This document shows, piece by piece, positions 4,680 through 31,577 of a DNA stretch of 45,561 bases (positions within the stretch are counted from its first letter, which is position 1; every line of letters starts with the position of its first letter). Below the pieces are notes generated by a model, which worked only from the letters and a program-made list of their open reading frames with translations, was not told the DNA's origin and ran no database searches. Location of the stretch: the IMG/VR virus record IMGVR_UViG_3300020450_001517, positions 1 through 45,561 of that record, one strand, 5' to 3'. A program made the translations under genes and the position numbers. Source of the DNA: a virus.

Positions 4680-4686
4680 CTGTTTG

Positions 4687-5529
4687 TTACGCCGCCTCTT
4701 GAGCTATTACTTGTAGCTTATCCAACGCCGCAATCATTCTGGTCATGCCTATGCCTCCGCCCACTCTTGGGAAGAAGTCATGTTGCAAGAATTCTTCTAA
4801 TTCGCCTTGTACTCTATCTTTGCTGAACAAATCAAATAGTAAACTTGAATATGCACCTTCAGTGATAGTGTGAAATGTTTCTCTCATTTGGTCAATGTCT
4901 GTACTGCGTTCAGCACTTCCTATTGTTTCCATGCCTCCTAAGATAACATCTATTTTTCTACTTGTGCCATCTCCGTTACGTGACATATTCCAAAATGGTG
5001 ATGTCATCTCTGGAAACTCTGTAATCATTGTTTGTCCAAACTCGTTCATCATGTTAGTTTCTTCTTCAGCAGTCATTTCATAATCTTCTGCGAGTCCGTA
5101 GTGCTTCTGCCATTCAGCATATGTTTTTTCAGTTATCTCACCAAAACCTAAGTATTCACATAGTTCGTATTCCATTGCTTTAAGGTCATCTATTGTACCT
5201 GGCATTTCAAATTCAAACATTGGAAAGATAATATCATGTCTGCCTGGGATAGCATTTGGCTCTTGTCTATAAGACGTAGAGAGACAAAAAAAGCCCTTCG
5301 ATGAGGGCTTTGTTAGTAATTCATATTCGAGCCACATCTGGCCCGTCTGGGGTAACGGCCATACCTGCCCTGCATAATTGTATGTCGCTACGTTAAATGG
5401 ATCTTCACATGCCGCTAGTATTGACAATCTGTTTTGAGTATGTACTTCTTCAAAACCTTTATCCAAAAAAAATGACCTAAGAAGGCCTGTTGCGTGTGTG
5501 AATTTATGTGGATTTATTAGTTGTGTCAT
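4687..5529 (-). CDS. AsnRS-like class II aminoacyl-tRNA synthetase core
   Basis: A 280-residue class IIb synthetase catalytic domain (AsnRS/AspRS/AsnA superfamily) with no N-terminal OB-fold anticodon-binding domain; normal AsnRS is about 430-470 aa. Visible: PQTGQ (60-64, matching the AsnRS SGQ element), motif 2 YRQE...GRHDIIFPMFEFE (87-108, with R88, E90), GGMETIGSAER (198-208) and motif 3 GGGIGMTRM (257-265, R264). ATP and amino-acid activation should be intact. Candidates are charging the adjacent tRNA(GUU), an AsnA-type asparagine synthetase (archaeal AsnRS paralogues do this), or aminoacylation of something else. A late-promoter-like CATAAATA (5606-5613) lies upstream and the tRNA follows 7 bases downstream. 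Confidence 0.85.
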   Translation of the reverse strand: MTQLINPHKFTHATGLLRSFFLDKGFEEVHTQNRLSILAACEDPFNVATYNYAGQVWPLPQTGQMWLEYELLTKPSSKGFFCLSTSYRQEPNAIPGRHDIIFPMFEFEMPGTIDDLKAMEYELCEYLGFGEITEKTYAEWQKHYGLAEDYEMTAEEETNMMNEFGQTMITEFPEMTSPFWNMSRNGDGTSRKIDVILGGMETIGSAERSTDIDQMRETFHTITEGAYSSLLFDLFSKDRVQGELEEFLQHDFFPRVGGGIGMTRMIAALDKLQVIAQEAA

Positions 5530-7533: not shown

Positions 7534-7745
7534 TTTTGAAATCTTTTCCATGTGTTGTGTAGTACATAAAACCAAACACCATTGATTAAAGGTTCTACTA
7601 TTGCATCTATTGTAGCCAGTTCTAGGCTTGCTCCAGTAATAATCATTACACATGCAATAGCTATAAGCATGTGTCCTATCGTATATACGATAGCTAGTGT
7701 AAGACTACTACCACCTATTAACCATTTTATTATATCATTTGCCAT
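7530..7745 (-). CDS. DUF2061-like membrane protein
   Basis: A 71-residue membrane protein with two transmembrane helices. The layout (SLTLAIVYTIGHM, then LELATIDAIVEPLINGVWFYVLHNTW) resembles DUF2061, a family of small inner-membrane proteins of unknown function. It overlaps neighbours on both sides. Not assigned to lysis, since the endolysin cluster is far away. Confidence 0.7.
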   Translation of the reverse strand: MANDIIKWLIGGSSLTLAIVYTIGHMLIAIACVMIITGASLELATIDAIVEPLINGVWFYVLHNTWKRFQK

Positions 7746-8166
7746 TTGATACCTCCGGCATTGTGAATAGAGCTTTTACTCCGTCATTTTCTGGTATTGG
7801 CTTACGGGCAAACACTACCCATTTGTGTGCCCACATAGTGTCTTTTGTAGTACAAAACTCTCTAAAACTTGTACCAGTTGTGTATACATCATCACATACC
7901 AACCAAGGATGATCTCCTTTTGTTACGTATTGTTCTAATGCAAATTGTAATGGCAAACCACCTCTTGGTATACCAACTACTCTACTAAAAGGTTCCGTTT
8001 GATAATCCATTATCATAGTTGCAAAACAATCCCATTCTTCAGGCTTGATTGCATCACATTCAATTTTCCATTTTAGTGGTATTCCTGCATGTGATATAAA
8101 GTCTATCTTTTGAAATAGATTTACAGGAACACCATACTCTAATGCATTTTTATTCCAATCTGTCAA
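7735..8166 (-). CDS. Phosphoribosyltransferase-like protein
   Basis: A 143-residue type I phosphoribosyltransferase fold protein. The PRPP-binding loop VCDDVYTTGTS (two Asp then TTGTS) is clear, and VVGIPRGGLPLQ is the upstream pyrophosphate loop. Closest in feel to orotate or adenine PRTases, but the hood that sets base specificity is too short to tell. It is one of three PRTase-like genes here (with 11018-11563 and 13418-13894), suggesting salvage of bases freed from host nucleic acid. Confidence 0.75.
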   Translation of the reverse strand: MTDWNKNALEYGVPVNLFQKIDFISHAGIPLKWKIECDAIKPEEWDCFATMIMDYQTEPFSRVVGIPRGGLPLQFALEQYVTKGDHPWLVCDDVYTTGTSFREFCTTKDTMWAHKWVVFARKPIPENDGVKALFTMPEVSNGK

Positions 8167-8379: not shown

Positions 8380-9324
8380 TTAAGTTCCTATTGCATTGCC
8401 AAACAAGTATACGTGTACTCTTGCCGCTACGTTGTAGCCTCTTTGAAATGCTCTAGCCGCCACATCACCAGCAGTTGCTTCCTGCTCCTCACTTCTAGCA
8501 CCAACAGGCATAACCCATACGGGCCATTTTACACCTGCACTACGCATCTTTGCAATTACACCTTCCATCTCTTCCCATTGTTCATCATCGTTACCAACAA
8601 CAAACTTTAGTTGTCCTTTTTGACTGAGATCATAATATTCGCCTACATGTTCTGGCTTTATTGCTCTTTCAGCTTTCTCGCCTGCTACTGTCCATAGTTT
8701 AGGCGATACACTAAAAAACAATTCTGTATCAATACTGTTCGCCCAATCTATAAATTCTGGACGTAATTTTTGTGTACCATTTGTTTCAAATGTCATACTG
8801 CCGGGCAAGTTACCCTGCCTTTGTAATTCTTCATATATTCCTACTGTAGCTTGTTGTCCTGTAGTCATCAACGGTTCGCCACCTGTTATACACAAGTGTT
8901 GTCTAAACTGAGATATAGGATGCAAAAATTGTCCTGTTGGATTGCTATCATTCTTCAATATATCTACAATTTTCTTTGCAATAATTGCAGGAGTTTCATG
9001 TCCCATAAGTCCTTTAAACTTCTTTGCCCAAGTGTAACTGCTATCACATCCTTTATCCCAAACAGGCAAGTCTTCAACTCTGTTAACACTCATTACATCA
9101 AATTCTTCAAACGGCAGTTGATACGTATCTGGATTAGTTGGATCAATTTGCCCAAAGCCGTTGCATTGCAAGTTACATAAAAAGTAACGTATCCAAGCAG
9201 TGGGAACACCTGTGTAATGTCCTTCTCCTTGTATACTGTAAAATATTTCACTGTAATAGTACTTGCGTTCTTTAGCAGTAGCAACTCCACGTTGTCTACC
9301 TCTATTCTCAACCAAGTGCATCAT
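8380..9324 (-). CDS. queE: QueE-like radical SAM 7-carboxy-7-deazaguanine synthase
   Basis: A 314-residue QueE homologue, which rearranges 6-carboxytetrahydropterin to 7-carboxy-7-deazaguanine (CDG), a precursor of preQ0, queuosine and DNA deazaguanines. Visible: SEIFYSIQGEG (25-35), the cluster region RYFLCNLQC (46-54) and TGGEP (SAM binding). Odd: the usual CxxxCxxC has only C50 and C54; position 57 is Phe. An insertion of about 40 residues brings C93 (KGCDSSYTW), which may supply the third Fe-S ligand. It overlaps the flavodoxin gene by 4 bases; flavodoxin is a known QueE electron donor in Bacillus. Acts with FolE and the QueD-like protein encoded at 18-21 kb. Confidence 0.88.
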   Translation of the reverse strand: MMHLVENRGRQRGVATAKERKYYYSEIFYSIQGEGHYTGVPTAWIRYFLCNLQCNGFGQIDPTNPDTYQLPFEEFDVMSVNRVEDLPVWDKGCDSSYTWAKKFKGLMGHETPAIIAKKIVDILKNDSNPTGQFLHPISQFRQHLCITGGEPLMTTGQQATVGIYEELQRQGNLPGSMTFETNGTQKLRPEFIDWANSIDTELFFSVSPKLWTVAGEKAERAIKPEHVGEYYDLSQKGQLKFVVGNDDEQWEEMEGVIAKMRSAGVKWPVWVMPVGARSEEQEATAGDVAARAFQRGYNVAARVHVYLFGNAIGT

Positions 9325-10915: not shown

Positions 10916-11025
10916 GCTTTGTCAATCACTTTTTGCATCAGTATTTGTGGTAAAGCACACAAGTAACCATACAAGGGCCAAAAAAGCAAATTGCCAATAA
11001 TTATATCTATGTATTCATTAAACAT
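10912..11025 (-). CDS. Tiny membrane protein (37 aa)
   Basis: A 37-residue hydrophobic protein (MFNEYIDIIIGNLLFWPLYG...) with one membrane helix. It overlaps the downstream dehydrogenase start by 4 bases (ATGA) and the upstream apt stop by 8 bases, which supports it as a real gene. Function unknown. Confidence 0.6.
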   Translation of the reverse strand: MFNEYIDIIIGNLLFWPLYGYLCALPQILMQKVIDKA

Positions 11026-11563
11026 TGTTTGTAACCCTAGCCAAATATGCCATGTCGATATGTAAGGAACCTTCTCTTACATACTTTAAATCTATAATAG
11101 TACTTACTCCAAGTACACTGGCACCGGTCTTTTCAACAAGTCTTTTGGTAGCTAAAATACTTCCTCCGGTTGCAACCAGATCATCAGCTAGAACACATCT
11201 ATCTGTATGTCCTAATAATCCTGTCTGCAATGTTAATGTTGATTCTCCGTATTCTAAAAAATACTTTTCTTCTAACAAATCGCCTGGATATTTTGCTCCA
11301 GCTTTTCTTACCATTATAAAAGGCAAATCCATTGCGTAGGCTATTGCACTTCCTACTACAAAACCTCTGCTTTCTATACCAACAATATGTGTTACTGCTC
11401 TATGTTCATATCTGCATTTTGTTTTGATGATTAATTCGTCCATTGCACTTTTAAAACTTGAACTTGCAAATAAGCTATTCAAGTCATAAAAATTAATACC
11501 TTTGATTGGATAATTAGGTACTGTTCTAATTAGTTCCAAATAATTTGTTTTAGGATTTTCCAT
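11018..11563 (-). CDS. apt: Adenine phosphoribosyltransferase-like
   Basis: A 181-residue protein matching bacterial adenine PRTases in length and motifs: IVGIESRGFVVGSAIAYAM (61-79), VRKAGAKYPG, and the PRPP loop VLADDLVATGGS. It converts adenine and PRPP to AMP. Beside PurA and a second PRTase it fits adenine recovery from degraded host DNA. It overlaps the small genes on both sides. Confidence 0.88.
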   Translation of the reverse strand: MENPKTNYLELIRTVPNYPIKGINFYDLNSLFASSSFKSAMDELIIKTKCRYEHRAVTHIVGIESRGFVVGSAIAYAMDLPFIMVRKAGAKYPGDLLEEKYFLEYGESTLTLQTGLLGHTDRCVLADDLVATGGSILATKRLVEKTGASVLGVSTIIDLKYVREGSLHIDMAYLARVTNNV

Positions 11564-13254: not shown

Positions 13255-13434
13255 TTAACTTGGTGTTGGGTTATGAAATTCGTCTTCTATTGCAACTATA
13301 GTATGAAATGTTGCCGCTCTAGGTCTTTTTTGTTTTATAACTTCCATATATGCTTCAGCTTCACTTAATGTATTAAATGTTGCAACTACTACAGGATCTT
13401 CAATACGTGGCTCATATTCAATTGCGAACATCAT
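13255..13434 (-). CDS. Small hypothetical protein (59 aa)
   Basis: A 59-residue soluble protein; the start at 13434 was chosen because GTAGGAG precedes it. Mixed alpha/beta look (PVVVATFNTLSEAEAYMEV then TFHTIVAIEDEFHNP), resembling a short SPOR- or ferredoxin-fold-sized domain. It overlaps the xanthine-guanine PRTase-like gene by 17 bases. No function recognised. Confidence 0.65.
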   Translation of the reverse strand: MMFAIEYEPRIEDPVVVATFNTLSEAEAYMEVIKQKRPRAATFHTIVAIEDEFHNPTPS

Positions 13435-13894
13435 AGTCTCCTACGTTTTCCCAAGGATAAACTAACCATACATCTTCCTCGGCTTTGTTTACTTCATGCA
13501 CATGATAACTTACTTCACCAAATGTGCTTGCCATATTTTCTGTTAGTGTTGCAAACTTTACACCATGTAGTATATTTTCTAATCCCCAATCTTCCCATAT
13601 CCAATTGAATGTTGCACCTGAGTCATTGATATCATCTACAATGAGTATCTTCTTGTCCATAATTAGTTCACTTAACCAAAAGTTTTTGTCAACTCTATCA
13701 TCGTTCCTAAAACTTACTTTCATTGCTTCGCAAGGGATATCTAACATATTACTAATAATAGAAGCAGGAATATTGCCTCCTCTAGTAAGTCCTACAATAT
13801 AATCTGGTTTAAAATTATCAGCATACATTTGTTTAACAATGCTTGTACACATTGTTTCTATGTCTTGCCAACTGTAAAAATGTTTTTTAATCAT
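13418..13894 (-). CDS. Xanthine/hypoxanthine-guanine PRTase-like protein
   Basis: A 158-residue purine PRTase: YIVGLTRGGNIPASIISN (32-49), PRPP loop ILIVDDINDSGAT (about 83-95), and a C-terminal VWLVYPWE as in Gpt-like enzymes. It would form GMP, XMP or IMP from the free base. Together with Apt and PurA it gives the phage its own purine salvage route and may feed GTP to FolE. It overlaps neighbours by 4 and 17 bases. Confidence 0.85.
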   Translation of the reverse strand: MIKKHFYSWQDIETMCTSIVKQMYADNFKPDYIVGLTRGGNIPASIISNMLDIPCEAMKVSFRNDDRVDKNFWLSELIMDKKILIVDDINDSGATFNWIWEDWGLENILHGVKFATLTENMASTFGEVSYHVHEVNKAEEDVWLVYPWENVGDYDVRN

Positions 13895-14169
13895 GTATTC
13901 CTCATCTTATCTGCTATCATTACACCTCTATACAAGTCTTGATAAGCTTCATATGCTTCTTTAAGTTCGGGATATTTGTCTTGTAATTTTTGATCTCTTG
14001 GTAATAACAACATAGCTTGATGTAGATTGTCAAGTTCATTTAAAATATTCCGTTCCTTAACAAATAATTCTTTGTTTAAGTCAACACTATTATCATTGAC
14101 TTGTATACTTCCTGATGTATCTAAAGTATGATAACTCTTTCCCATATCAGTCATTCCTCCAAATAACAT
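13891..14169 (-). CDS. Hypothetical helical protein (92 aa)
   Basis: A 92-residue mainly helical acidic protein. It could start at the internal ATGs (MTDMGKSYHTL) instead; the first ATG overlaps the purA stop by one base. A central Leu-rich helix (KERNILNELDNLHQAMLLL) suggests a coiled coil. Function unknown. Confidence 0.65.
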   Translation of the reverse strand: MLFGGMTDMGKSYHTLDTSGSIQVNDNSVDLNKELFVKERNILNELDNLHQAMLLLPRDQKLQDKYPELKEAYEAYQDLYRGVMIADKMRNT

Positions 14170-15371
14170 TAAAATAAATCCTTCAGTACTATTGTTTGAT
14201 CTCTTTCTGGTCCAGTTGATATTAGTACAACTTTAGTATAGATGAGTTTTTCAATTTTGTCAACATATAGTTGTGCATTCACTGGTAAGTCACTGTATTC
14301 TGTTATACCAACAGTACTTGTACGCCACCCAGACATTTCTTCATAAACGGGTATGCCGTTGTTGTGATCTACACATATTTTAATAGTGGCAAGATCATCT
14401 AATACATCCATTTTCATTAGTGCAATACCAGTACACCCATTTAGCATACAAGTTTTACGAACTTGAGGTGCATCAAACCAGCCACAGCGTCTATCTCTGC
14501 CAGTAACTGTGCCTTTTTCTCCGCCTTTTTCTGCTAGGTGCCAACCAATATCATCTGTTAGTTCAGTAAGCATTGGACCTTCGCCTACTCTAGTTGTGTA
14601 TGCTTTTGTTATTCCTAGTACGTTTGGTATTTTGTTATGAGGCACGCCACTACCTATACTTGCCATACCAGCCAATGTATTTGAACTTGTAACATACGGA
14701 TAAGTTCCATGATCCACATCTAACATTGAGCCTTGAGCTCCTTCAAACAAAATATTTTTGCCAGCATCGGTTTGTTCATTTAACCATTCAGCTACAGGAC
14801 CAACGTACTGTAGTATCTCATGTCTAATTTCTAATAGTTCAACAAGCAAATCTTGTTGGTCAAAGTCGTGGTGTTCACCTGCTATTTTTAATCTATCTTT
14901 GAGTAGTCTAGTGTCGCTGAGATCACTAACTTTAATTGCACGTCTACCAGCCTTGTCCTCATATGCAGGACCAATACCTCTGCCAGTAGTACCAATCTTT
15001 TTCTTAGTTGCTTGTTCTCTTGATTGATCTAATTGTTTATGATATGGTAAAATTAAACAAGTATTTTCTGCAATCATTAATCTAGTAGAGTCAATTTTTA
15101 TACCTTGCGACTTTACCGATTCAATCTCTTTTAATAGTTCCCACGGATCTAATACAACACCATTTCCAATAACTACAATTTTATCTTCTCTAACAATACC
15201 ACTAGGTAATAAACTTAATTTGAATACCTTATCTTCAATTACTAGTGTGTGTCCTGCATTGTGTCCGCCTTGAAAACGTACAACTATATCTGCTTGTTCA
15301 GCAAGTAAGTCAACTACTTTACCTTTACCTTCGTCACCCCATTGGGTGCCTACAACTACTAAGTTTCCCAT
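14169..15371 (-). CDS. purA: Adenylosuccinate synthetase
   Basis: A 400-residue adenylosuccinate synthetase (IMP + Asp + GTP to adenylosuccinate), slightly shorter than bacterial PurA (about 430). GTQWGDEGKGK (8-18) keeps the catalytic Asp, GGHNAGHT keeps the catalytic His, TTGRGIGP binds IMP, and STGPERDQT binds GTP. Phage PurZ enzymes of the 2-aminoadenine pathway carry Ser in place of that Asp, so this is PurA rather than PurZ. It may boost AMP/dATP synthesis in an AT-rich phage. A structured leader (15392-15423) separates it from yhhQ. Confidence 0.94.
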   Translation of the reverse strand: MGNLVVVGTQWGDEGKGKVVDLLAEQADIVVRFQGGHNAGHTLVIEDKVFKLSLLPSGIVREDKIVVIGNGVVLDPWELLKEIESVKSQGIKIDSTRLMIAENTCLILPYHKQLDQSREQATKKKIGTTGRGIGPAYEDKAGRRAIKVSDLSDTRLLKDRLKIAGEHHDFDQQDLLVELLEIRHEILQYVGPVAEWLNEQTDAGKNILFEGAQGSMLDVDHGTYPYVTSSNTLAGMASIGSGVPHNKIPNVLGITKAYTTRVGEGPMLTELTDDIGWHLAEKGGEKGTVTGRDRRCGWFDAPQVRKTCMLNGCTGIALMKMDVLDDLATIKICVDHNNGIPVYEEMSGWRTSTVGITEYSDLPVNAQLYVDKIEKLIYTKVVLISTGPERDQTIVLKDLF

Positions 15372-15430: not shown

Positions 15431-16048
15431 TTATACCTTATCTTCAGAAAGTCTACCGTTTAGATAACGCAGTAATACACCATATGCAGGAAGGAATACA
15501 ATTAGTCCTACTGCAATTTTAAGTACAACTTGGCTTCCTGCAATTTCCATCCAGTTTGCCGCCATATACTCATCTGCACTGTTGTTAAATGCAACCCAAA
15601 AGAATGCATATGTGTCAATGATGTTTGCCGCCACTGTTGATACAGCTGGTGCTAACCACCAATGCTTCATAAAGTTTTCACGAAGCCATTGAAACACATA
15701 CACGTCAAGCATTGTGCCAACTGCATATGCTGTTGCACTAGCAAAACCAATTCTTAGTGCTACACTTTGCGGTGCACCTTCTAGCATTACAACTGCAATA
15801 CTGCCAATGATTGCCAACGGATAAGCCGCCGCAATAGTTGAACGTGCAATGTTCTTACCAAGAAGTCTTACTGTCAAGTCAGTTGCCAGTACTACTAATG
15901 GAAAGGTAAATGCCGCCCATGTAAGTTTAATTCCAAAAATTTCTACTGGAATTGCAACTAGTGCATTACTGACTGTGATGACAACCACATGTAGTGCTAC
16001 TAGTTTTAGCAACATGCTTCTGTCGATATCTTTAAAAATTCCTAACAT
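15431..16048 (-). CDS. yhhQ: YhhQ-family queuosine precursor transporter
   Basis: A 205-residue inner-membrane protein of the YhhQ (VUT) family, which imports preQ0/preQ1. Six hydrophobic segments; signature stretches ITVSNALVAIPV, FPLVVLATDLTVRLLG, WWLAPAVSTVAANIIDTYAFF and the end YGVLLRYLNGRL align with E. coli YhhQ. The start at 16048 has a GGGAG ribosome site and avoids overlapping the oxygenase gene. It would let the phage draw deazapurines from outside the cell, complementing FolE/QueD/QueE and feeding DpdA. Confidence 0.9.
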   Translation of the reverse strand: MLGIFKDIDRSMLLKLVALHVVVITVSNALVAIPVEIFGIKLTWAAFTFPLVVLATDLTVRLLGKNIARSTIAAAYPLAIIGSIAVVMLEGAPQSVALRIGFASATAYAVGTMLDVYVFQWLRENFMKHWWLAPAVSTVAANIIDTYAFFWVAFNNSADEYMAANWMEIAGSQVVLKIAVGLIVFLPAYGVLLRYLNGRLSEDKV

Positions 16049-16068
16049 ATTATATTTCTCCCTGTTAG

Positions 16069-16929
16069 TTAATAGCTTTGTGCTAATCGCCATTTCAAGT
16101 ATTCTAAACTTTCAATGGGTTCGTATTTTGCTGTTTGATCTGTTAAATTTTGTACCATAGTACCTGGTGCAGGATCTACAAAATGTGGCATGCTCCAACG
16201 TTCTTTATGTATATGAGAATTAACAACTCTATGTTTAGTTGATTTGAAATAGTCATTTGTCCAACGTTGTAACAAGTCACCAATATTACAAACTACACCG
16301 TTATCTGCATAAGGTACAGGATGCCATTCTCCCTCAAGGTCTTGTACTTGTAGTCCTGGAACGTCATTGATCTGCCAAAGTAGTGTGATAGTGCCGTAGT
16401 CACTGTGTTCTCCTATTCTCATTTGTTTATTCTGAAGAGGTCCATCATATGCTGGATAATGAATTACTCTTGTTGTACTATAGTTTGTTTTGTGTGCATG
16501 TGTTAAAGGCATATCTGGACGTTTGAGTATCCTGTCAAACATTGTCATTAGTTTAAGTGTAAGTCTATCTGCTATTGTTACAGTTTCTCCTGCAAGACTT
16601 TTAAATCCAGTTATGTCGGGCCATAAATGATCGCCCATTCTATCATTGTTATAATTAAAACTTTCTTTTAAATCTTTAGGAGCAGTAGGATCTACATTTT
16701 CTGCACCCATTACACTATAACCTAAATTAGTATCGCCTTCATATGGATACTTCATTTTGGTTTCCAAATCCATTTCAAAAAACTGTTTCATTGTATCAAA
16801 CCATAAGTTGTAAACACTACGTTCTTGTTCATTAAAATGGTTTGTAAAAACTGCAAACCCAATAGTTGTGTATGCATCTTCTATCTGCTTTAGTGCAGTA
16901 TCATCTTTTAAATCTATTACTGGTATCAT
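16069..16929 (-). CDS. 2OG-Fe(II) oxygenase (isopenicillin N synthase-like)
   Basis: A 286-residue 2-oxoglutarate/Fe(II) dioxygenase of the DIOX/IPNS type. Start at 16929 (MIPVIDL) with AAGGAAA upstream. Iron ligands HxD in GEHSDYGT and the distal His in STKHRVV; the 2OG-binding Arg lies in RWSMPHF. It probably hydroxylates or oxidises a small molecule; substrate unknown. Being first in the unit with yhhQ, purA and queE, it could tailor a purine or deazapurine. A hairpin terminator (16948-16972) separates it from the upstream gene. Confidence 0.88.
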   Translation of the reverse strand: MIPVIDLKDDTALKQIEDAYTTIGFAVFTNHFNEQERSVYNLWFDTMKQFFEMDLETKMKYPYEGDTNLGYSVMGAENVDPTAPKDLKESFNYNNDRMGDHLWPDITGFKSLAGETVTIADRLTLKLMTMFDRILKRPDMPLTHAHKTNYSTTRVIHYPAYDGPLQNKQMRIGEHSDYGTITLLWQINDVPGLQVQDLEGEWHPVPYADNGVVCNIGDLLQRWTNDYFKSTKHRVVNSHIHKERWSMPHFVDPAPGTMVQNLTDQTAKYEPIESLEYLKWRLAQSY

Positions 16930-16947: not shown

Positions 16948-16972
16948 AAAGTGGCCCAAGAAGGGCCACTTT
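16948..16972 (-). terminator. Rho-independent terminator
   Basis: A perfect 10-bp stem (AAAGTGGCCC / GGGCCACTTT) with a 5-base loop, followed on the minus strand by more T residues. It follows the BMP gene stop by 14 bases and isolates it from the oxygenase unit. Confidence 0.85.
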
Positions 16973-16986
16973 GTTATGAGGTGGTC

Positions 16987-18084
16987 TTAGTTAGGCACAC
17001 TTAAATCAATGCCTTCAACATAGTACATCATACTATCTAGGTGAGCTCTATCTGCAATTTCGCCTGCAGGTATTTGTAACTTGCCTGTGTTGTCGTAAAT
17101 AGGTCCTGTGAAAGCAAAGTATTCGCCGTCTCGGATTGCATCTTTGACTTCTTGTGCTTTTGCTCTTACATCATCTGGCATATTTGTAAATGGAGCCATC
17201 TCAACTGATCCATCATTCATATGTCCAAAGTAACAACCGTCTGGTCCATCACAACCTGGTGTCCATGTACCGTCAAGTACTTGACCAACTTTTGCAATAT
17301 AGTAAGGTCCCCAATTATCAATAGTGGCTGTTAATTGTGCCTTAGGTGCAAATGCATATTGATCACTTGCCTGACCAAAACCATGTAGTCCTTGTTGTTC
17401 TGCAACCTGCATAGGTGCAGGTGAGTCTGTGTGTTGTGCAATTATATCACAACCTTGACTAAACAATGCTTTTGATGCATCTGCTTCTTTACCCGGATCA
17501 TACCAAGTCATTACCCAAACGATGTCAATATCAATATCTGGATTAACACTCTTAGCACCTAAGAAAAAAGTGTTGATCTCTCTGATAACTTCTGGAATTG
17601 GATAAGCGGCAACATAACAAATTTTATTTGTCTTTGTCATCATGCCAGCTATGACACCCTGAACGTGTCTAGCTTGGTATAACCTTAGTCCGTAGTTTGC
17701 AAAGTTTGTGTCATTGCTTTTATAACCAGTAGCATGTTCAAATTTCACATCTGGAAATTCTTCTGCTACTTCTCGCATTGAATCCATGTATCCAAAGCTG
17801 GTTCCAAAAACAATGTCTACACCTTGCAATGCCATTTGGCGGAATACACGAGTAGCATCTGGACCATATTGGACACTTTCTACAAACATTGTTTCGACTT
17901 TATCGCCGTATGCTTCTTCTACTTGTTGACGACCAATATCATGTCTATAAGTCCAACCATGGTCACCTGTTGGTCCAACATATACAAAGCCTACTTTAAC
18001 TTTATCTTTTGGTTCATCTGCATATGCAGAGAAAGCCATTGTAACTGCAAGCATTGTTGCAGTCAGTAATTTAATTAGTTTCAT
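16987..18084 (-). CDS. BMP-family ABC substrate-binding protein
   Basis: A 365-residue periplasmic binding protein of the basic membrane protein family (PnrA/TmpC, Med), whose characterised members bind purine nucleosides. Start at 18084 with AGGAGA upstream. It opens a clear signal peptide (MKLIKLLTATMLAVTMAFSAYA, cleaved after about 22) with no lipobox. VGFVYVGPTGDHGWTYRHD and IVFGTSFGYMDSM are family-typical. No permease or ATPase is visible, so it would work with the host transporter, much as cyanophage PstS does for phosphate. It stands alone between two strong terminators, looking like an inserted host-derived cassette. Ligand is inferred. Confidence 0.9.
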   Translation of the reverse strand: MKLIKLLTATMLAVTMAFSAYADEPKDKVKVGFVYVGPTGDHGWTYRHDIGRQQVEEAYGDKVETMFVESVQYGPDATRVFRQMALQGVDIVFGTSFGYMDSMREVAEEFPDVKFEHATGYKSNDTNFANYGLRLYQARHVQGVIAGMMTKTNKICYVAAYPIPEVIREINTFFLGAKSVNPDIDIDIVWVMTWYDPGKEADASKALFSQGCDIIAQHTDSPAPMQVAEQQGLHGFGQASDQYAFAPKAQLTATIDNWGPYYIAKVGQVLDGTWTPGCDGPDGCYFGHMNDGSVEMAPFTNMPDDVRAKAQEVKDAIRDGEYFAFTGPIYDNTGKLQIPAGEIADRAHLDSMMYYVEGIDLSVPN

Positions 18085-18144
18085 GTTTTTTATCTCCTCT
18101 TGGGTTTTTAGGTGTTCTTTAACTAAAAAATGTTTCACCCTAGT

Positions 18145-18169
18145 AAAAAAGGGCCTAGAGCCCTTTTTT
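18145..18169. terminator. Bidirectional rho-independent terminator
   Basis: AAAAAAGGGC-CTAGA-GCCCTTTTTT: a 10-bp stem (6 A-T, 4 G-C) with a T run on either strand. It lies 11 bases after the folE stop and ends the long replication/modification transcript that starts near 32560. Confidence 0.88.
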
Positions 18170-18179
18170 GTCTTTATAC

Positions 18180-18863
18180 CTATTTGGCATATTCTTGTTG
18201 TAATTTTACATTATCAATAAATTCTTTCCTTACGTCTGGCTCATCTTTAAAAGCACCTCTAAGCACTGTGGTTTGTGTTAAACTACTGTGTGCTTTGATG
18301 CCTCTGTTCTCACAACAACCATGTGTTGCTTGAATATAAACACCTACATGTTCACTGCCTGTAATTTCTTGTATTTTATTTGCAATCATTACATTCAAGT
18401 CTTCTTGTAGTGTGCCTCTTTTTGCTACCCATTGTGCAATTCTTGAGTACTTGCTTAGACCTAATAGTTTTGGACCTGCAATTATACCAATGTATGCTAC
18501 ACCTTTTACTGTTTGGTGATGATGCGAACACAAACTAGTTAGTTCACTACGCACAACCAACATGCCTTCATAACCACCTTCAATGTAGTTGGGAAATGCA
18601 CTAGGGTTGGGCATTGCATCATAACGACCAGACATAATCTCATTGATGTACATCTTTGCCATACGTCTTGCAGTATCCATACTGTTAGGATCAGTCTCAG
18701 TATCAATCACTAGACTTTGTAATACATTTTCAAAAGCTGGCATCGCCTCTTCGATGAGTTGTTGCTTTTCGCCTTCTTCCATGTAATCACTGATGTTGTC
18801 GTTTGCCCATGCTCTCGCACCAGCGGCGTCGACACGCTCTTTAATTTTTTGGGAAATTTTCAT
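18180..18863 (-). CDS. folE: GTP cyclohydrolase I
   Basis: A 227-residue FolE making 7,8-dihydroneopterin triphosphate from GTP, the first step to deazaguanines and folate. Zinc and active-site motifs: SLCSHHHQTVKG (Cys, His), LLGLSKYSRIAQWVAKR, and THGCCENRGIKAHSS (Cys). Last gene of the DpdA/QueD-like/glycosyltransferase block, right before a terminator. The QueE step is supplied by the separate unit at 8380-9324. Confidence 0.94.
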   Translation of the reverse strand: MKISQKIKERVDAAGARAWANDNISDYMEEGEKQQLIEEAMPAFENVLQSLVIDTETDPNSMDTARRMAKMYINEIMSGRYDAMPNPSAFPNYIEGGYEGMLVVRSELTSLCSHHHQTVKGVAYIGIIAGPKLLGLSKYSRIAQWVAKRGTLQEDLNVMIANKIQEITGSEHVGVYIQATHGCCENRGIKAHSSLTQTTVLRGAFKDEPDVRKEFIDNVKLQQEYAK

Positions 18864-23136: not shown

Positions 23137-23984
23137 ATATCCATCTCCTGTTGTAATTTCCAATAGTCATCATTTTTATGTTCAAACAATGCAGTCTTTA
23201 TCATTTCTTTGTATGCACTTTCTGGACATAAACCCAGTTCAAAACTTTTTGTTTTTGTATGAACTGCAATATCATCGCCATCTCTACTTGCCCAATCAGC
23301 ACGTAATTCAAAATCTCCAAATTCAATGTAACAAAAATCATCTACATCATATACGCCATCAGGATCAACTTCTCCATAATCACTGTCCGTTAAATCTTCT
23401 AAGTTCCATGATTGTGTTGTGATAATATTTTTAGGTTGTATTTTTCTCCAATTAGGCTCAAACATTTGATATAAACTTAACAAGTGTGGCATCAAATCTC
23501 TGCTCACTCCACCATATGCTAATTGTTTATTTGTAAACCAACTACCTGGTTTAGGAACTCTATTATCATTGATCCAATTAATTTTTGCATATCCTTTTGC
23601 ACAGTTTGCCATTTCAATAATGTTATCTCTGTATTGATTGTTTTTGGTCATCATAATCCTTGTATCATTATGATCTCCAAGTAATTTTACCCATTGTTGT
23701 TGATTGAATACGCCTGGCTTTTCTACGAACATAATATCACAGTGACCTGCATAAAGATATGCAAGTTCTAAATGTGTCCAGTTTGGAGTAGTAATGTGAC
23801 AAGTGTTAAAATAGTGACCACCATGTCCGGTGCCACCTCCAGTTACATGTTCTGGCTTGTTGAAGTCTGCATTAGGATCTGCAATGTCTACTGTTGTAAC
23901 TTGCCAGCCCATACTTTCGTATATACTTTTGTATAGGCTACCAAATCCTGTACCAACTATTAGTGCTTTATTCGAAGAGTGCAT
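23106..23984 (-). CDS. Gfo/Idh/MocA-like oxidoreductase
   Basis: A 292-residue NAD(P)-dependent oxidoreductase of the Gfo/Idh/MocA type. N-terminal Rossmann GTGFGSLY (11-18), FVEKPG with the family's conserved Lys-Pro of the active site, NQYRDN, and a C-terminal substrate domain beginning GGVSRDLMPHLL, where a catalytic His-type residue sits. It would oxidise or reduce a sugar. It overlaps DpdA by 17 bases and the MDR gene by 31 bases, so all three are one translational group. Confidence 0.83.
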   Translation of the reverse strand: MHSSNKALIVGTGFGSLYKSIYESMGWQVTTVDIADPNADFNKPEHVTGGGTGHGGHYFNTCHITTPNWTHLELAYLYAGHCDIMFVEKPGVFNQQQWVKLLGDHNDTRIMMTKNNQYRDNIIEMANCAKGYAKINWINDNRVPKPGSWFTNKQLAYGGVSRDLMPHLLSLYQMFEPNWRKIQPKNIITTQSWNLEDLTDSDYGEVDPDGVYDVDDFCYIEFGDFELRADWASRDGDDIAVHTKTKSFELGLCPESAYKEMIKTALFEHKNDDYWKLQQEMDIWIHQILSNL

Positions 23985-25473
23985 TAAACTGTGCTGAACT
24001 GTTAATTGTTTTCTTTCCTACGGCACCACGTGTGCCAATTACTTTCATCCATAGTTTACGATGATTTTCGATAATAGTCAAGCTCTTTCCTTTATCGCTT
24101 TCAGCAAATACTTCCATAATAACATCTTTAACTTCAGTCTTATCAAAGTTATCATCTACCATCATACTAGGATATGCACCTTTGTCAAAGGATTTGTTTG
24201 CTTCTTGTACACTCATAATATGTTGCCATACATTGTGATTCATTAACAAGCAATAAGCAAAACTATCCCAACTTGTTTTAGTTTCGGTGCCCATTCTACT
24301 TACATCACCAGGAGCATAGTAACAAATATCATCAATGGCTAAACCTTTGCTCATAGGTGAACTTATATAATCTGGATACATCTGTTTTACAACATCATCA
24401 AATGGAACATTACTACCTTTGTATGCTTTATCATCTGGACCTACATTCATCAAGTAACTCCATTTACCACCTTGATCCAATCTCCAGTTTGTGTAAAACT
24501 GTCCATTGGCTGTACACAAGAAAGGACTTGCACAATCATATGTAATGTTGAAACTAGGGTTATGATACTTGCGAACTGCTCTTTGCATTGCAGTTAGCAC
24601 CACTGCCCATTCTAATTTACTTGTACCAAGAAAGTGCATAACATCATGCTTGCCTTCTTCAAGTAGTCCGTCATGTCTAAGTTCAACTAGTCTTTTAAGT
24701 GCTAGTTCAATATCACACATATTTTGACCACCCATAGCCCAACCATTGAAGTGTGCATCTGGATACTGTTTTGGATCACAAAACTTTTTCATTTGTGAAT
24801 ACCAATCATCTGCTTGTGCAAAGTTTTCACCTTGTAGCACATTTAAGAACTTGCAATCGCCACTACGGTTCTTAATAAAGTATTCGTTATTAAAAGCAGT
24901 ACCGTCTACTGCTTCTTGATAACTTCCGATGTTACTAGCTTTTGCACCTTCAGGACTTCTGCTTACCCATGCTGGAATATCCAATATCATTCCATAGTCC
25001 ATAAATGCGTCCATCCATTTGAGAACGCCATCACGTTTTTTCTGTGCTAGACTACAACCACTTCCTGCTCTCCAGTCACCTTCCCATTTGCCTTTACCAA
25101 TCTGAAAGCCTCCGCTATCACCTAATAGCCAACTGTATTGTCTATCACGTTCTCTGTATTGACTTTCTCTGTACATGTCTTTTTGTAAATCAAGACTGGC
25201 ATGACCTGCACTGTGTAAACTCCACTTGTAACGCCACATACCTTCTTTAGCAAGCCAGTTTATACTTTCAACTCCATTTGTGAGGTGCGAGGGAATTCGA
25301 TTGAGTGGGATATAAGGTTCCCCACTACCTTTCTTATTTTCGTCTAATGGTTCTAAGCCTCGTCTTTGCCTACCTACAAACAGAGCATAGAAAGTACTAA
25401 GTGCTGGCAAGAATGTTGCATAGTCACTTTGTCTTGCAGTTAAGTCTGTTTCAGTTGTATAATCTGTTGTCAT
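23968..25473 (-). CDS. dpdA: DpdA-like DNA deazaguanine transglycosylase
   Basis: A 501-residue TGT-superfamily protein best read as DpdA, which swaps guanine in DNA for a 7-deazaguanine. LLGDSGGFQ (117-124) carries the general-base Asp of TGT, NVLQGEN and NGWAMGG match the substrate loops, and ITYDCASP (D313) matches the nucleophile Asp. The zinc site is not obvious. Tail differs from tRNA-guanine transglycosylases, and length (501 versus about 380) favours DpdA. It overlaps the oxidoreductase gene and a 52-aa gene, and shares an operon with folE and the QueD-like gene. Likely effect: protection of phage DNA from host nucleases. Confidence 0.85.
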   Translation of the reverse strand: MTTDYTTETDLTARQSDYATFLPALSTFYALFVGRQRRGLEPLDENKKGSGEPYIPLNRIPSHLTNGVESINWLAKEGMWRYKWSLHSAGHASLDLQKDMYRESQYRERDRQYSWLLGDSGGFQIGKGKWEGDWRAGSGCSLAQKKRDGVLKWMDAFMDYGMILDIPAWVSRSPEGAKASNIGSYQEAVDGTAFNNEYFIKNRSGDCKFLNVLQGENFAQADDWYSQMKKFCDPKQYPDAHFNGWAMGGQNMCDIELALKRLVELRHDGLLEEGKHDVMHFLGTSKLEWAVVLTAMQRAVRKYHNPSFNITYDCASPFLCTANGQFYTNWRLDQGGKWSYLMNVGPDDKAYKGSNVPFDDVVKQMYPDYISSPMSKGLAIDDICYYAPGDVSRMGTETKTSWDSFAYCLLMNHNVWQHIMSVQEANKSFDKGAYPSMMVDDNFDKTEVKDVIMEVFAESDKGKSLTIIENHRKLWMKVIGTRGAVGKKTINSSAQFNALFE

Positions 25474-27145: not shown

Positions 27146-28822
27146 TTAACTTAGTTTTTCTAGTTTGTCAACAGTTAATCCTCTGCATTGTTTAGCATCA
27201 ATATACTGTGTTCTGTTGTTCATTTTTAAAAATCCGTGCCCATAAAGTATTGGATATTTTCTTGTGCTGATTGGATCATGCAGTGTTACATCTATGTATT
27301 CACCATTTCCAATACCAAGTGTTACAAATGTTACATACTTGCCACGTTCACTTTTGAATACCCTACTGTTGGCTACTATACCACAAAAAGCGGCTTTACC
27401 ACCTCTGCGTTTTAAAAATGTATTGGGCAAGAACTGACTGCTGGTCCAATAGCCTTTGCGTTTGTATTCGTCTACAGGATCATACAAATCACACACATTG
27501 CCCAATGCATTGTTTAATAGTGCTTCTCTTTTGTATACCCAACGTCTATACGAACCTTGACAGTGTTTGAGTGCCGCCTCCCAAAACTTTTGTGGATTGT
27601 GGGCTTTCTCATATGCTAGACTCCATATAAGCCTACCCAAGTTTATAGCATGAGCTCTACATATACCAAACCCACTTAGTTGTCTTAGATCTTCCATAAT
27701 CTCATCACGTTTGACATGGCTACCAATTAGTTCATAAAACTGCATAACTTTTTCTTCGTTGCGTTTGGCAAATGCTCTACGCCACATATCAGCTTCATAG
27801 TAATTGCAACCTAGTATTTTACTGATGCGTTTGATAGCATCATCTTCGTATACAGTTGTTTCGTTAAATTTGTCTTTGCTCCAATCATTGAAGAAACTGG
27901 CTTTGCGTCTGCCTTGCATTGCTACAGGACGTACCAGTGCAGTTGCAAATGTGCAGTCATCTCTGTTGGTTACGTGCAATGCTCTAAACAGTCTACGCAT
28001 TGCTGGCGACTCCGCTTGTGTAACACCCAATACATCACCACGCTGTAACAGTTGTGCAGTCTTTTCATCATACTGCGGATATTCCATTGGTTGCTTGCCA
28101 TTTATCTCCCATAGTTGACTAAGTCCTCTGTTTGCAAGTATATCAATTTTAAAGTGTTCAAGGTCTTCTATCTCATACTTGTCTAATAGTATTTGATTCT
28201 CACCATTGATAAGACTTTTGGGTACCTTTCTATCAAATATAAGTACACCACCACAGTGTTTGCTGATATAGTTTTTCTTGCCTTCCAGCTTTCTTGCTAT
28301 GCGTTCTGCTTCGCCTTCTTGTCCTGGAATAACTTCTGTAAGTCGAAAGTTTCTGCCCAACTTGTTGTGTGGTACTCCAAGTCGTTTACATGCTTCACGC
28401 AATGCACTTTTGGGTTTGTAAGTTACAAAGTTTGATACTCTTGCACTTTGTCTGGGCCAGTTGTCGTATACACGTTGCATTACTATTGCTTGAGCCCAAT
28501 GTGGAAAGTCCAAGTCAATGTCTGGTAAGTCGTCACGTTTTGGATTAATAAAACGTGCTAGTGGTATTTGTTGTTCAATTGGATCTACATCACTTATGCC
28601 CATAAGGAAACACACAAGACTGCATCCTGCTGATCCTCTAGTTATGTGTGGAAAGTCTTTTGCTAGTTCTAATATCTCATGTACTCTTACAAAATGTTTG
28701 ACGAATCTATGCTTGAGTATTAGTTCTACTTCTTCGGCTAGCCTATCTGTGTATTCTTTTGTTGTTGGTATTTTTCTACAAAAACGTGATGTGAGTTGTT
28801 CTATCTGTTCTAGTTCTGTCAT
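27146..28822 (-). CDS. Truncated family C DNA polymerase (DnaE/ImuC-like)
   Basis: A 558-residue family C polymerase that lacks the PHP domain (DnaE is about 1160 aa). Palm: TRGSAGCSLVCFLMGISDVDP (61-81), LPDIDLDF (D101, D103) and HFKIDILA (D227) keep all three catalytic Asp. Fingers and later conserved blocks are present (KHCGGVLIF, VTQAESPAMRRLF, SGFGICRAHA), followed by an OB-like end (FCGIVANSRVF). It should be active and may be error-prone or a repair polymerase like ImuC. A second polymerase family beside gp43 is unusual in T4-like phages. It lies between gp43 and the clamp. Confidence 0.85.
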   Translation of the reverse strand: MTELEQIEQLTSRFCRKIPTTKEYTDRLAEEVELILKHRFVKHFVRVHEILELAKDFPHITRGSAGCSLVCFLMGISDVDPIEQQIPLARFINPKRDDLPDIDLDFPHWAQAIVMQRVYDNWPRQSARVSNFVTYKPKSALREACKRLGVPHNKLGRNFRLTEVIPGQEGEAERIARKLEGKKNYISKHCGGVLIFDRKVPKSLINGENQILLDKYEIEDLEHFKIDILANRGLSQLWEINGKQPMEYPQYDEKTAQLLQRGDVLGVTQAESPAMRRLFRALHVTNRDDCTFATALVRPVAMQGRRKASFFNDWSKDKFNETTVYEDDAIKRISKILGCNYYEADMWRRAFAKRNEEKVMQFYELIGSHVKRDEIMEDLRQLSGFGICRAHAINLGRLIWSLAYEKAHNPQKFWEAALKHCQGSYRRWVYKREALLNNALGNVCDLYDPVDEYKRKGYWTSSQFLPNTFLKRRGGKAAFCGIVANSRVFKSERGKYVTFVTLGIGNGEYIDVTLHDPISTRKYPILYGHGFLKMNNRTQYIDAKQCRGLTVDKLEKLS

Positions 28823-28847
28823 GCCTAAACGGTCCTAATAAAGCCAA

Positions 28848-28865
28848 ACGTACTATTATGTACGT
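28848..28865. repeat. Inverted repeat between polymerase genes
   Basis: ACGTAC-TATTAT-GTACGT, a 6-bp palindromic stem with a 6-base centre, in the 55-base gap between gp43 and the DnaE-like gene. It could be an operator or an RNA hairpin. T4 gp43 binds a hairpin in its own mRNA, but that lies before gp43, not after it as here. Confidence 0.5.
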
Positions 28866-28869
28866 ACTT

Positions 28870-28877
28870 TATTTATG
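28870..28877 (-). promoter_or_regulatory. Late promoter candidate (CATAAATA)
   Basis: CATAAATA on the minus strand directly after the gp43 stop and about 48 bases before the DnaE-like ATG. One base from the T4 late octamer; weak evidence alone. Confidence 0.3.
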
Positions 28878-31577
28878 TCAGTTCCAGTCAAATAAACTGT
28901 CAAATGTAGTTTTATCTTCTGCTTTAGTTAAGTCCCATTTCATTACACCTAATAGGTTTTCTATCTTCTTTGTAATGATGCCTTGTTCCATTTCTTCACT
29001 ATTGAACGGCAGTTCTTTGTACCATTCTGGAAGTCTTGTTTCATCTGTAGGATAGCCAATACTAGTGAAACCCATTGGGTTTGGCTTTAGTTTACACACA
29101 ATAGTTTTCATACCATCCATAATTTCCATGCTGTATCTGTCACTGTTCATTCTACGCATTCTATTGTAATTGATTGCCGCTCTAACGTGACCTGGCATAT
29201 TAGCTTTGCCTTTGTATATCTCATCACCTGTTTTTGGATCAATCATATATTCACTATTGTAATAGTGTGTAAGTTTGTTCACACGTTTGGGTGTTCCTTT
29301 AAGCCATGCTGGCATGTTTCTGAACTCACTACGAAACTCAATTATACGTTCTATAATTTCTTCTTCATTTGTGCCTGTTAGTGTTTTAAGTAACAGTTCA
29401 TTCAAGAAGTCTTGCATAAATGCTGGTGTGTCTGACCTTTTGAGGTCCAAGCCCATTGCTTTTATTTTGCCTGGTTTATCATCAGTATCTTCTCTATGAC
29501 CTTCATTGTCATACACTAAAATAGCATAACGTTTTTTAGTTATGTATATACCAGCAGTTGCACTTACTTCTCTAGCCGCCGCAATAATTTTACCTTGTTC
29601 TTTGTTTAGAACGTTATGTGCAGTTGCCATATAATCTGGAAATGTTTCGTTAGCTTGTTCACAAACAGTTTCATAAAGTTCTGTAACTTTGTCTTTGTCC
29701 CAAGCAAACTCGCCGTTTTCAATCTGATCTTTGAATACAGGATAAGCACTAAAGTATACACTATCTGTATCACCATAAATTATTGCATCACCTACGTGAT
29801 CATACTTACCAGTAAATAGTTCATTTACTTTTGCACCCATGTGTCTTGCAATAGTTCTACCTGTCAGTGTAGTTGATTGTCCCATACGTGGATCATTGAA
29901 TCTACTGCCTGGATTCAACAATGCACCATACAAACTATTCAAGTTAATTTTTTTAACCAACTGTCTTTTATCCCAATAAGCAGTTTTTTCAACATCACCA
30001 CTTTCCCTTGCTTCACGCATTTCTTTTTGCATAACTTTACGTTCAGCATACCAACGTTCTAACAAGCCTGGAATGATACCTTTTTTGCTTTGGTCAAGTA
30101 TAGTACCATTACTACTCAATACCCAAGGTTGTCCACTTCCAAATATTATTTGATACAGTTCTTTACCTGTACCTTGAAGTTCTTCCCCATTTTCAAAGTC
30201 AATATATAGCAGTGTTTCATCATTTTTTTCAATAACCAATTCATATTCTCTACATGCAAACTTGCCTTCCCATGCACTTGCAACTATCCATTTGTGTTCA
30301 TTTAACATAGGCACAGTTAATGTGTGTCTTATTTGACCAACAATAGTTTCTGTACTCATGTTTAAACTACGTAAGATACTTGGGTATAGACTGTTCAAGT
30401 CCATACTGCCTATCCATTCATGAAAGCCTTTTTTCGGTGTTGCAACATATGCACCAGCCGCTGTACAAGTTTGTGGATAGTGTTTTTGTGTTTTGTCATG
30501 TTGTTTATCAGGAACAATCAATCCTCTACTGTGTGCTTCGTTGAGAATAGCTTGATCTGTTACTGCTACTGCACCCATTGTTGTTTGCACAAGAACTGTG
30601 TTGTCATGTGCAATAACATTTGCCAAGTCGATAAACTGTAGTTTTTTGTCCATACGCACCAGCAAGTCAACATCTTGTCTTGAATATCTAATAAATGTTT
30701 CAAAGTCGTTGTTGTACAGTTGATCCAATGTACCTTGATATTCTGTTTTGCGTTCGCCAAGTTCATATTCACCAATAGCATCTAAACTATAACTGTGCAT
30801 TTCGTGATATGTATACTTGCGATAAAGTTCCATATAATCCAAATGCAGTCTACCTACTGTATCATAAGTTTCTTGTGCTCTACCATAACGTTCAAACTCT
30901 CGCTTGTTTGGATACTTTCCCCACAAACAAAAACGTCTTGTATGTTCTTTGCCCATAGTTCTTGCGATACGATTAACCAAGTATGGAATATCAAATCCCT
31001 CACTGTTCCATCCACTCATTACATCAGCATCATCTATCAGTTGTAAGAATGTATCTAACAGTTCATCTTCAGTATCTAGCAGTATTGTATCTTCAAATCT
31101 ATCCACAATAGTTTGTGCATCAGCTTTTGTGAGTGTTTTGGGTTTGTTAACCAAACATATGGTTTTGCCAATCCAATCCAAGTGTACACTGATTGCAGTT
31201 ACAGGATTGAACGGATCACTAGGATCTGCAAATCCTTTCTCAGGATCAAAGTCAACCTCAATATCAAAAAATGCTTGTTGTAGCTTTGGAGTATCTGCTC
31301 CCAAGTAATTGTCAGCTAAACATCTAAATACAGGATTAACATCACTTTCAAATAGCTTTTGACTGCTATACAGTTTCTTTTCTTTCTTAAACTGTTTACC
31401 ACTAGTAGTTACTACACGGTCTAGTTTATCGCCAAAAATACTTTCATATTTGCCACGAGCATCTTTGTAATAAAACAAGTAACGTGCAGGATATTCTCTG
31501 AACTCACGTTTACCATTTACACGTTCAACAACATGTATTATATCTTTATCTCTATCTATTAATGCATCAACATACAT
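28878..31577 (-). CDS. 43: Family B DNA polymerase (T4 gp43-like)
   Basis: An 899-residue replicative polymerase, the length of T4 gp43 (898). Proofreading exonuclease motifs: FFDIEVD (ExoI), GWNSEGFDIPYL (ExoII), YSRQDVDLL (ExoIII). Polymerase motifs: MDLNSLYPSI (A), KINLNSLYGALLN (B), YGDTDSVY (C). All catalytic Asp residues are intact. It is preceded by the reductase gene with one shared base and driven from the sigma70 promoter at 32562-32590. No intein or intron is seen. Confidence 0.97.
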   Translation of the reverse strand: MYVDALIDRDKDIIHVVERVNGKREFREYPARYLFYYKDARGKYESIFGDKLDRVVTTSGKQFKKEKKLYSSQKLFESDVNPVFRCLADNYLGADTPKLQQAFFDIEVDFDPEKGFADPSDPFNPVTAISVHLDWIGKTICLVNKPKTLTKADAQTIVDRFEDTILLDTEDELLDTFLQLIDDADVMSGWNSEGFDIPYLVNRIARTMGKEHTRRFCLWGKYPNKREFERYGRAQETYDTVGRLHLDYMELYRKYTYHEMHSYSLDAIGEYELGERKTEYQGTLDQLYNNDFETFIRYSRQDVDLLVRMDKKLQFIDLANVIAHDNTVLVQTTMGAVAVTDQAILNEAHSRGLIVPDKQHDKTQKHYPQTCTAAGAYVATPKKGFHEWIGSMDLNSLYPSILRSLNMSTETIVGQIRHTLTVPMLNEHKWIVASAWEGKFACREYELVIEKNDETLLYIDFENGEELQGTGKELYQIIFGSGQPWVLSSNGTILDQSKKGIIPGLLERWYAERKVMQKEMREARESGDVEKTAYWDKRQLVKKINLNSLYGALLNPGSRFNDPRMGQSTTLTGRTIARHMGAKVNELFTGKYDHVGDAIIYGDTDSVYFSAYPVFKDQIENGEFAWDKDKVTELYETVCEQANETFPDYMATAHNVLNKEQGKIIAAAREVSATAGIYITKKRYAILVYDNEGHREDTDDKPGKIKAMGLDLKRSDTPAFMQDFLNELLLKTLTGTNEEEIIERIIEFRSEFRNMPAWLKGTPKRVNKLTHYYNSEYMIDPKTGDEIYKGKANMPGHVRAAINYNRMRRMNSDRYSMEIMDGMKTIVCKLKPNPMGFTSIGYPTDETRLPEWYKELPFNSEEMEQGIITKKIENLLGVMKWDLTKAEDKTTFDSLFDWN

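Follow-up and report, generated by a model that had tools for sequence, protein, structure and literature searches.

The window, which is the whole stretch of DNA analysed, is an IMG/VR virus record of 45,561 bases. Its minus strand carries a gene (16987–18084; ATG at 18084, stop codon at 16987) for a 365-residue periplasmic substrate-binding protein of the BMP/PnrA family, here called BMP, which is predicted to be a purine-nucleobase receptor. The ORF is complete and matches the Pfam Bmp domain (PF02608) with an E value of 7e-51 and 173 bits, against a cut-off of 24.1. The N-terminus reads, by eye, as a Sec-type signal peptide, MKLIKLLTATMLAVTMAFSAYA|DE, with no lipobox. The domain, a two-lobed fold in the structural model and this export signal together place the protein in the family, and a first-pass annotation of the locus was right in calling it a complete, exported binding protein.

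The gene is preceded by a ribosome-binding site, GAGGAG (18094–18099), and by a 31-nt structured leader RNA, here called motif A (18110–18140), which ends 25 nt before the start codon. These elements, and all the genes and hairpins described below with coordinates in this neighbourhood, are on the minus strand. The upstream neighbour is GTP cyclohydrolase I, FolE (18180–18863; PF01227 and synteny). Downstream lies a 2OG-Fe(II) oxygenase with DIOX_N and 2OG-FeII_Oxy domains (16069–16929; Pfam). This is followed by a YhhQ-type queuosine-precursor transporter (15431–16093; TIGR00697, 119.5 bits, cut-off 50.95), the adenylosuccinate synthase PurA (14169–15371; 548 bits to PurA and 148 bits to PurZ), a phosphoribosyltransferase (13418–13894; PF00156, with a weak match to xanthine phosphoribosyltransferase at 45.8 bits, below the cut-off), adenine phosphoribosyltransferase, Apt (11018–11563; NF002636, 153.9 bits, cut-off 125), and a protein with the PRPP motif CDDVYTTGTS (7735–8166). 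The last has no Pfam hit, and its relatives follow the oxygenase in some cassettes. Of 79 distinct loci, 19 have an ORF with a PRPP motif in the 1.5 kb downstream; among 173 control segments the number is 4 (Fisher p 1.5e-7). PurA, three phosphoribosyltransferases and YhhQ had been grouped as purine-scavenging genes. This holds for PurA, for Apt, for the phosphoribosyltransferase fold at 13418 and for the PRPP-motif protein at 7735, but not for YhhQ, which is a preQ0/preQ1 transporter according to NCBIfam.

The family-B DNA polymerases closest to the phage's own come from jumbo T4-like phages, e.g. Sinorhizobium phage Phosso and Agrobacterium phage Atu_ph07. The window is therefore probably a piece of a large myophage, with an alphaproteobacterium as a plausible host. 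The T4 late promoter TATAAATA is rarer than chance, and no copy lies near the BMP gene. In sequenced phages, the BMP was found only in distant unannotated contigs (12 records, nearly all from the human gut, all below 60% identity); a PHROG search with the BMP gave no match, and no close relative of the oxygenase was found among deposited phages.

By sequence, the closest solved relatives of the BMP are PDB 3s99 (391 bits, 52% identity), the Brucella melitensis BMP, which we take to hold adenine, and 6pi5, AtzT (304 bits, 43% identity). The AlphaFold model (pLDDT 85) gives TMt values of 0.89–0.91 to both using Foldseek. Identity to the nucleoside receptors PnrA, BmpD and Lbp is 16–22%, and these are therefore not its closest relatives. 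The ligand first suggested was a purine nucleoside; the purine part of that suggestion stands, but these comparisons make a nucleobase more likely.

AtzT was purified with guanine, in a site made up of a Tyr45/Trp194 clamp, Ser97, Phe98, Glu165, Asn218 and Asn220; Asn169 belongs to the second shell (PMC6834077). The phage residues aligned to this site are W44, S96, F97, E165, W194, H218 and D220, the same as in 3s99. The features of the AtzT/3s99 subclass, namely the aromatic clamp, Ser-Phe, the Glu and a polar pair at 218/220, are thus all present, and the phage pocket residues are identical to those in 61–63 of 63 cellular homologues. Position 169 is different. The phage rows have Glu here in 55 of 56 cases (the exception, L081_1p, is a distant second hit in its contig), as do the SAR116 cassette and Rhodobacteraceae SB2 (both discussed below); the residue is Gly in 62 of 63 cellular homologues and Asn in AtzT. 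Because the pocket matches the 3s99 and cellular type save at this position, our best guess for the ligand is a purine base, possibly with shifted specificity; the change from Gly to Glu could alter ligand choice.

The window also contains a QueE-like gene (8380–9324), YhhQ (15431–16093), FolE (18180–18863) and a 501-aa protein (23968–25473) that lacks Pfam hits but has a transglycosylase-like motif, LLGDSGGFQ; together these suggest a 7-deazaguanine system for DNA or tRNA modification. A link between this system and the BMP, as a receptor for preQ0 or queuine, was considered and rejected: FolE, QueE and YhhQ were not seen flanking many of the BMP-oxygenase pairs, and the cellular relatives of the BMP adjoin xdh genes.

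A scan of IMG/VR with the BMP found 180 stretches encoding a relative, of which the best 80 loci (67–85% identity) were kept. A second scan, with the oxygenase as query, increased the number of viral loci to 157, some of whose contigs overlap. Both genes are present in 149 of these, always on the same strand; three have only the BMP, at a contig edge, and five only the oxygenase. The gene after the BMP is nearly always the same oxygenase, while the neighbourhoods of the pair are many and different. The BMP therefore does not lie alone, as had been thought, but has a constant partner. No report of such a pair in phages was found in the open-licence literature. Most of the viral contigs are fragments, and their phage identity comes from IMG/VR, from replication genes, and from T4-type capsid genes in three large contigs.

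In 118 of the 149 paired loci the two genes overlap or abut (−40 to +10 nt), with no terminator separating them. They are 45–194 nt apart in 21, and every distinct gap sequence in this group contains a stable hairpin; in the other 10 the gap is 0.9–3.7 kb. The window, with a gap of 57 nt containing a hairpin (16948–16972; ΔG −18.4 kcal/mol, z −5.9, 0/200 shuffles as good), thus has a minority layout. A second hairpin is found at the 3′ end of folE (18145–18169; ΔG −13.1, z −2.5, 6/200 shuffles as good), 4 nt before motif A. Both were previously described as strong terminators enclosing the BMP. Both are indeed more stable than their shuffles, the downstream one clearly and the upstream one less so, and the latter belongs to FolE. 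The distance from the folE hairpin to the BMP start codon is 60 nt, half of which is occupied by the conserved leader, an element missed in the first-pass annotation, so that there is little room for an independent BMP promoter.

The oxygenase has an HxD...H triad (H175/D177/H233) and 2OG-binding residues R244/S246 that are invariant in an alignment of 32 phage copies. Its best solved sequence relative is thymine-7-hydroxylase (T7H), with 135 bits by profile, the next different protein scoring 111. T7H also comes first in Foldseek, whereas VIA-align (Z) ties it with several other members of the subfamily. Six residues contact thymine in T7H (PMC4787775), and four of these are common to the phage oxygenase. 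The resemblance to the Neurospora crassa enzyme (PDB 5c3p–5c3s) thus extends to the Fe triad, the 2OG-binding Arg/Ser and the equivalents of Arg190, Tyr217, Phe292 and Asn87; identity is about 30%, however, the equivalents of Glu122 and Asn294 differ, and most of the common residues are not T7H-specific. Three of them (Arg, Tyr, Phe) are also frequent in distant bacterial homologues. Matching residues were consequently rejected as proof of the substrate, this control having found them common in the wider subfamily, and together with the VIA-align tie it means that the comparison points only weakly to a nucleobase. The role that we prefer is that the enzyme would oxidise an imported base, by hydroxylation or demethylation, before phosphoribosylation. 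Distant cellular homologues of the oxygenase are divergent to a BMP-ABC operon in 4 of the 25 genomes read (L284, L287, L288 and L289), and an association of oxygenase and BMP-ABC genes is therefore also found outside phages.

It had been noted that no transporter genes accompany the BMP. This is confirmed for BMP-type ABC permease and ATPase genes, none of which were seen in the window or in the fetched flanks of the 80 phage loci, the best of the 180 relatives and mostly fragmentary records. Among the cellular BMP loci (80, plus the resident SAR116 loci), permease 1 is present in 66, the ATPase in 62 and xdhB in 27. Single-cell genomes of SAR116 contain chromosomal BMP-oxygenase cassettes with no adjoining BMP-type transporter genes; neighbouring genes include a xanthine phosphoribosyltransferase in L086, and hydantoinase-like and allantoate-amidohydrolase-like genes in L085. 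The same genomes also encode a resident BMP with permeases (and an ATPase, seen in L285 and L286), so that a phage receptor could use the importer of its host. The uptake originally proposed presupposes a matching permease in the host, and SAR116, a plausible host, has one of the ABC type. In Rhodobacteraceae SB2, an ABC operon adjoining xdhA and xdhB has a phage-type BMP as its receptor gene, and no oxygenase partner was found there. Should this operon work, it would be a natural experiment demonstrating that a purine ABC importer can be served by a receptor of the phage type. The cassettes of the SAR116 genomes L083–L086 are near-alike and keep motif A in differing chromosomal surroundings, and look mobile.

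In a tree of 50 BMP sequences, all the phage BMPs fall in one group (100/100). Two bacterial lineages belong to it as well, the SAR116 cassette (98/95) and SB2, which groups with two phage sequences (99/97). A group of phages only, excluding both lineages, occurs in 0 of 200 bootstrap trees. On this tree, the phage BMPs form a single old clade within which bacteria are nested. The simplest reading would be transfer from phage to bacterium, the alternative being thin sampling of the host lineages. Recent capture from a host, for which a comparison with host BMPs had been suggested as a check, was rejected on the basis of the trees.

Motif A was aligned using 25 distinct sequences, including those of the SAR116 cassettes. 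It begins 45–59 nt before the BMP start codon, counted from the start of the aligned segment, and is predicted to form a stem, P1, which encloses an internal loop and an inner stem of 3 bp. Paired cells make up 98.5% of the alignment, compared to 33–40% when the structure is slid. The covariation comes from one base pair, 9–35 in P1, which occurs as GC, AU, CG and UA and scores above all 500 shuffles. The window itself scores 51.7 bits with the covariance model, of which it is a part. Among 79 distinct leaders, 23 have motif A, nine have a second structure, motif B, and 47 have neither, many of these starting directly after another gene. Of the 16 larger phage contigs searched, 10 have one strong copy according to the model, located at the BMP, as do the four SAR116 genomes; with strict filters, the model finds no copy in 384 other alphaproteobacterial genomes. 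Rfam 15 gave only chance matches to either motif at permissive thresholds.

We consider it unlikely, though a serious alternative, that motif A is instead a DNA operator, a phage promoter or an N-terminal coding extension. It is short and close to the start codon, in several phages it comes right after a terminator or tmRNA gene, and in the window an internal GTG opens the same frame as the BMP. An extension starting at this GTG (18138) was nevertheless rejected: differences of 2 and 4 nt in loop length put the frame out of register, so that motif A is not a conserved reading frame. The four versions of pair 9–35 are those of an RNA stem, and a general promoter would not be expected at no more than one strong copy per large phage contig searched. 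As an RNA, motif A may possibly act as a riboswitch for the same metabolite as the receptor and oxygenase, or a related one.

Motif B (GGCAGAGTCGATCCTGCC..ACACCCTCGAAAAGGA) is found before the BMP in phages without motif A (L017:7954-7996, L032:7955-7997, L080:7946-7988, L081:5742-5792, L175:3875-3917, L176:2101-2143, L188:3886-3936 and L197:3887-3929). The alignment of eight sequences, with L048 and L050 as weaker probable members, has compensatory changes at two stem pairs and a possible pseudoknot near the ribosome-binding site. A search of 385 alphaproteobacterial genomes gave background scores only (maximum 23 bits, compared to 57–68 in the phages from which the model was built).

Motif A also precedes a phage NMT1-type set of substrate-binding protein (SBP), ATPase and permease, located before the same type of oxygenase, with or without the BMP. 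In L229 and L328, the NMT1-type importer, an ASST-like gene and the oxygenase occur with no BMP. In L334–L336 the importer directly follows FolE and is accompanied by another oxygenase; in L335, PurA and YhhQ then follow. By synteny, the slot downstream of folE is thus an exchange site between uptake modules. The ligands better known for receptors of the NMT1/THI5 type are thiamin-type pyrimidines and sulfonates. The strongest sign that a single metabolite links receptor, oxygenase and leader is that two unrelated importers replace each other under one leader and upstream of one type of oxygenase. PRPP synthetase, PyrF, PyrB, RpiB, GMP reductase and an adenine-PRTase-like protein are additionally encoded in related phage islands. 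In the NMT1-bearing contigs searched there is no T4-type capsid gene, and their phage identity comes from IMG/VR and replication genes. A complete NMT1/THI5-type ABC importer (SBP, ATPase and permease) together with an arylsulfotransferase-like protein and a 2OG oxygenase was observed at L016:9121-13660, at L050:9066-13403 and in L326–L353.

On the basis of these observations, we hypothesise, with a probability slightly better than even (roughly 0.55), that the cassette is a phage module for nucleobase import and oxidation which borrows the permease of its host. The exported phage BMP would capture a purine base in the host periplasm. As the phage supplies no BMP-type permease, we propose that the loaded receptor docks on the BMP-type ABC importer of an alphaproteobacterial host such as SAR116, which would raise the uptake of purine bases. 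In the cytoplasm, the oxygenase would then hydroxylate or oxidatively demethylate the imported base, perhaps doing with one gene the job that xanthine dehydrogenase does beside the cellular transporters. Phosphoribosyltransferases (Apt and others) and PurA would channel the product into phage DNA synthesis, and the leader RNA would adjust BMP expression in cis, possibly as a riboswitch. The ligand, the docking, the oxygenase substrate and the mechanism of regulation are the parts of this scheme that we infer. The presence of the two-gene unit in well over a hundred marine virus contigs indicates that these viruses probably assist infected cells in taking up DNA building blocks from seawater.

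Three other explanations deserve attention. It is rather unlikely that the module imports a vitamin-type ring (a thiamin pyrimidine or B6 vitamer) or another heterocycle, remodelled by the oxygenase, with no purine involved. This would fit the NMT1/THI5-like nature of the alternative importer and the departure of position 169 from the cellular purine type, and the BMP has a match, albeit a weak one (59 bits, cut-off 400), to a putative B6 receptor in NCBIfam. Against it, the clamp and contact residues are those of the 3s99/AtzT class, the cellular relatives adjoin xanthine dehydrogenase, and the phage has purine salvage genes. We think it improbable that the BMP is a simple PstS-like moron, captured recently from a host and acting alone in purine nucleoside uptake beside an unrelated oxygenase. 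It is an orphan receptor with purine genes close by, and cyanophage PstS is a precedent, but the conserved partner, the age of the phage clade with its nested bacteria and a fold closer to nucleobase than to nucleoside receptors all speak against this. The PstS-like layout proposed by the first-pass annotation is thus apt for an orphan receptor but not for a lone moron, the BMP being half of a two-gene unit. Least probable of all, in our opinion, is a cassette that reroutes or blocks purine catabolism, for example by depleting a purine or making an inhibitory oxidised base, rather than supplying DNA synthesis. Ordinary dNTP supply does not need oxygenation of a base, and the cellular homologues occur in catabolic (xdh) contexts; the nearby phosphoribosyltransferases, and PRPP synthetase, PyrF, PyrB and GMP reductase in related islands, point instead to salvage.

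The import-and-oxidation module has parallels in known systems. Cyanophage PstS, which is thought to work with the host importer, is likewise a phage-carried orphan periplasmic ABC receptor that must rely on a host permease; the phage BMP differs in its predicted ligand (an organic nucleobase, not phosphate), in forming a two-gene unit with an oxygenase, in its leader RNA, and in its apparent donation to bacteria by phage lineages. AtzT (from Pseudomonas sp. ADP) and 3s99 have the same fold, clamp, contacts and C-terminal extension, and differ from the phage protein in residue 169, in the BMP-type permease and ATPase genes that the phage lacks, and in its pairing with an oxygenase. The alphaproteobacterial BMP-ABC-xanthine dehydrogenase operons similarly place a receptor of this family beside an enzyme that oxidises purine bases, but in the phage the BMP-type permease and ATPase are absent and a single-gene 2OG oxygenase replaces the molybdenum enzyme.

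If this module is real, lytic phages of the sea do more than recycle the DNA of their hosts: they also cause infected cells to take up nucleobases from seawater and to process these by means of a dedicated enzyme, perhaps with RNA-based control. The module would extend the PstS paradigm from phosphate to nitrogen-rich bases, and a large group of phage 2OG oxygenases, so far uncharacterised, would gain a concrete substrate question that can be tested. It would also provide a candidate new phage regulatory RNA and suggest that a transporter receptor has moved from phages into bacteria. A broader version is more tentative and less likely than not: the island after folE may be exchangeable, holding either the orphan BMP or a full NMT1-type importer, each with a 2OG nucleobase oxygenase, with both under motif A as a new phage-specific class of riboswitch whose sensed ligand would be the base or its oxidised product, and the receptor may have passed to bacteria, where it would now be part of a transporter linked to xanthine dehydrogenase.

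Some further features were observed in the window and in related phages. A 558-aa DNA polymerase III alpha-like protein, with NTPase and finger domains, adjoins the complete T4-type family-B polymerase (27146–31577). A tRNA-like stretch is located at 4580–4680 on the minus strand (GATTCGAACCTCC on the plus strand), for which ARAGORN made no call. A class II (Asp/Asn) tRNA-synthetase-like catalytic domain of 280 aa (4687–5529) recurs near BMP cassettes in many phages. Finally, permuted-type alphaproteobacterial tmRNA genes are found in several phages (L004:674-982, L007:4166-4529, L176:1697-2026, L197:6413-6716 and L208:803-1169), and in at least L004, L007, L176 and L208 they are upstream of the BMP cassette.
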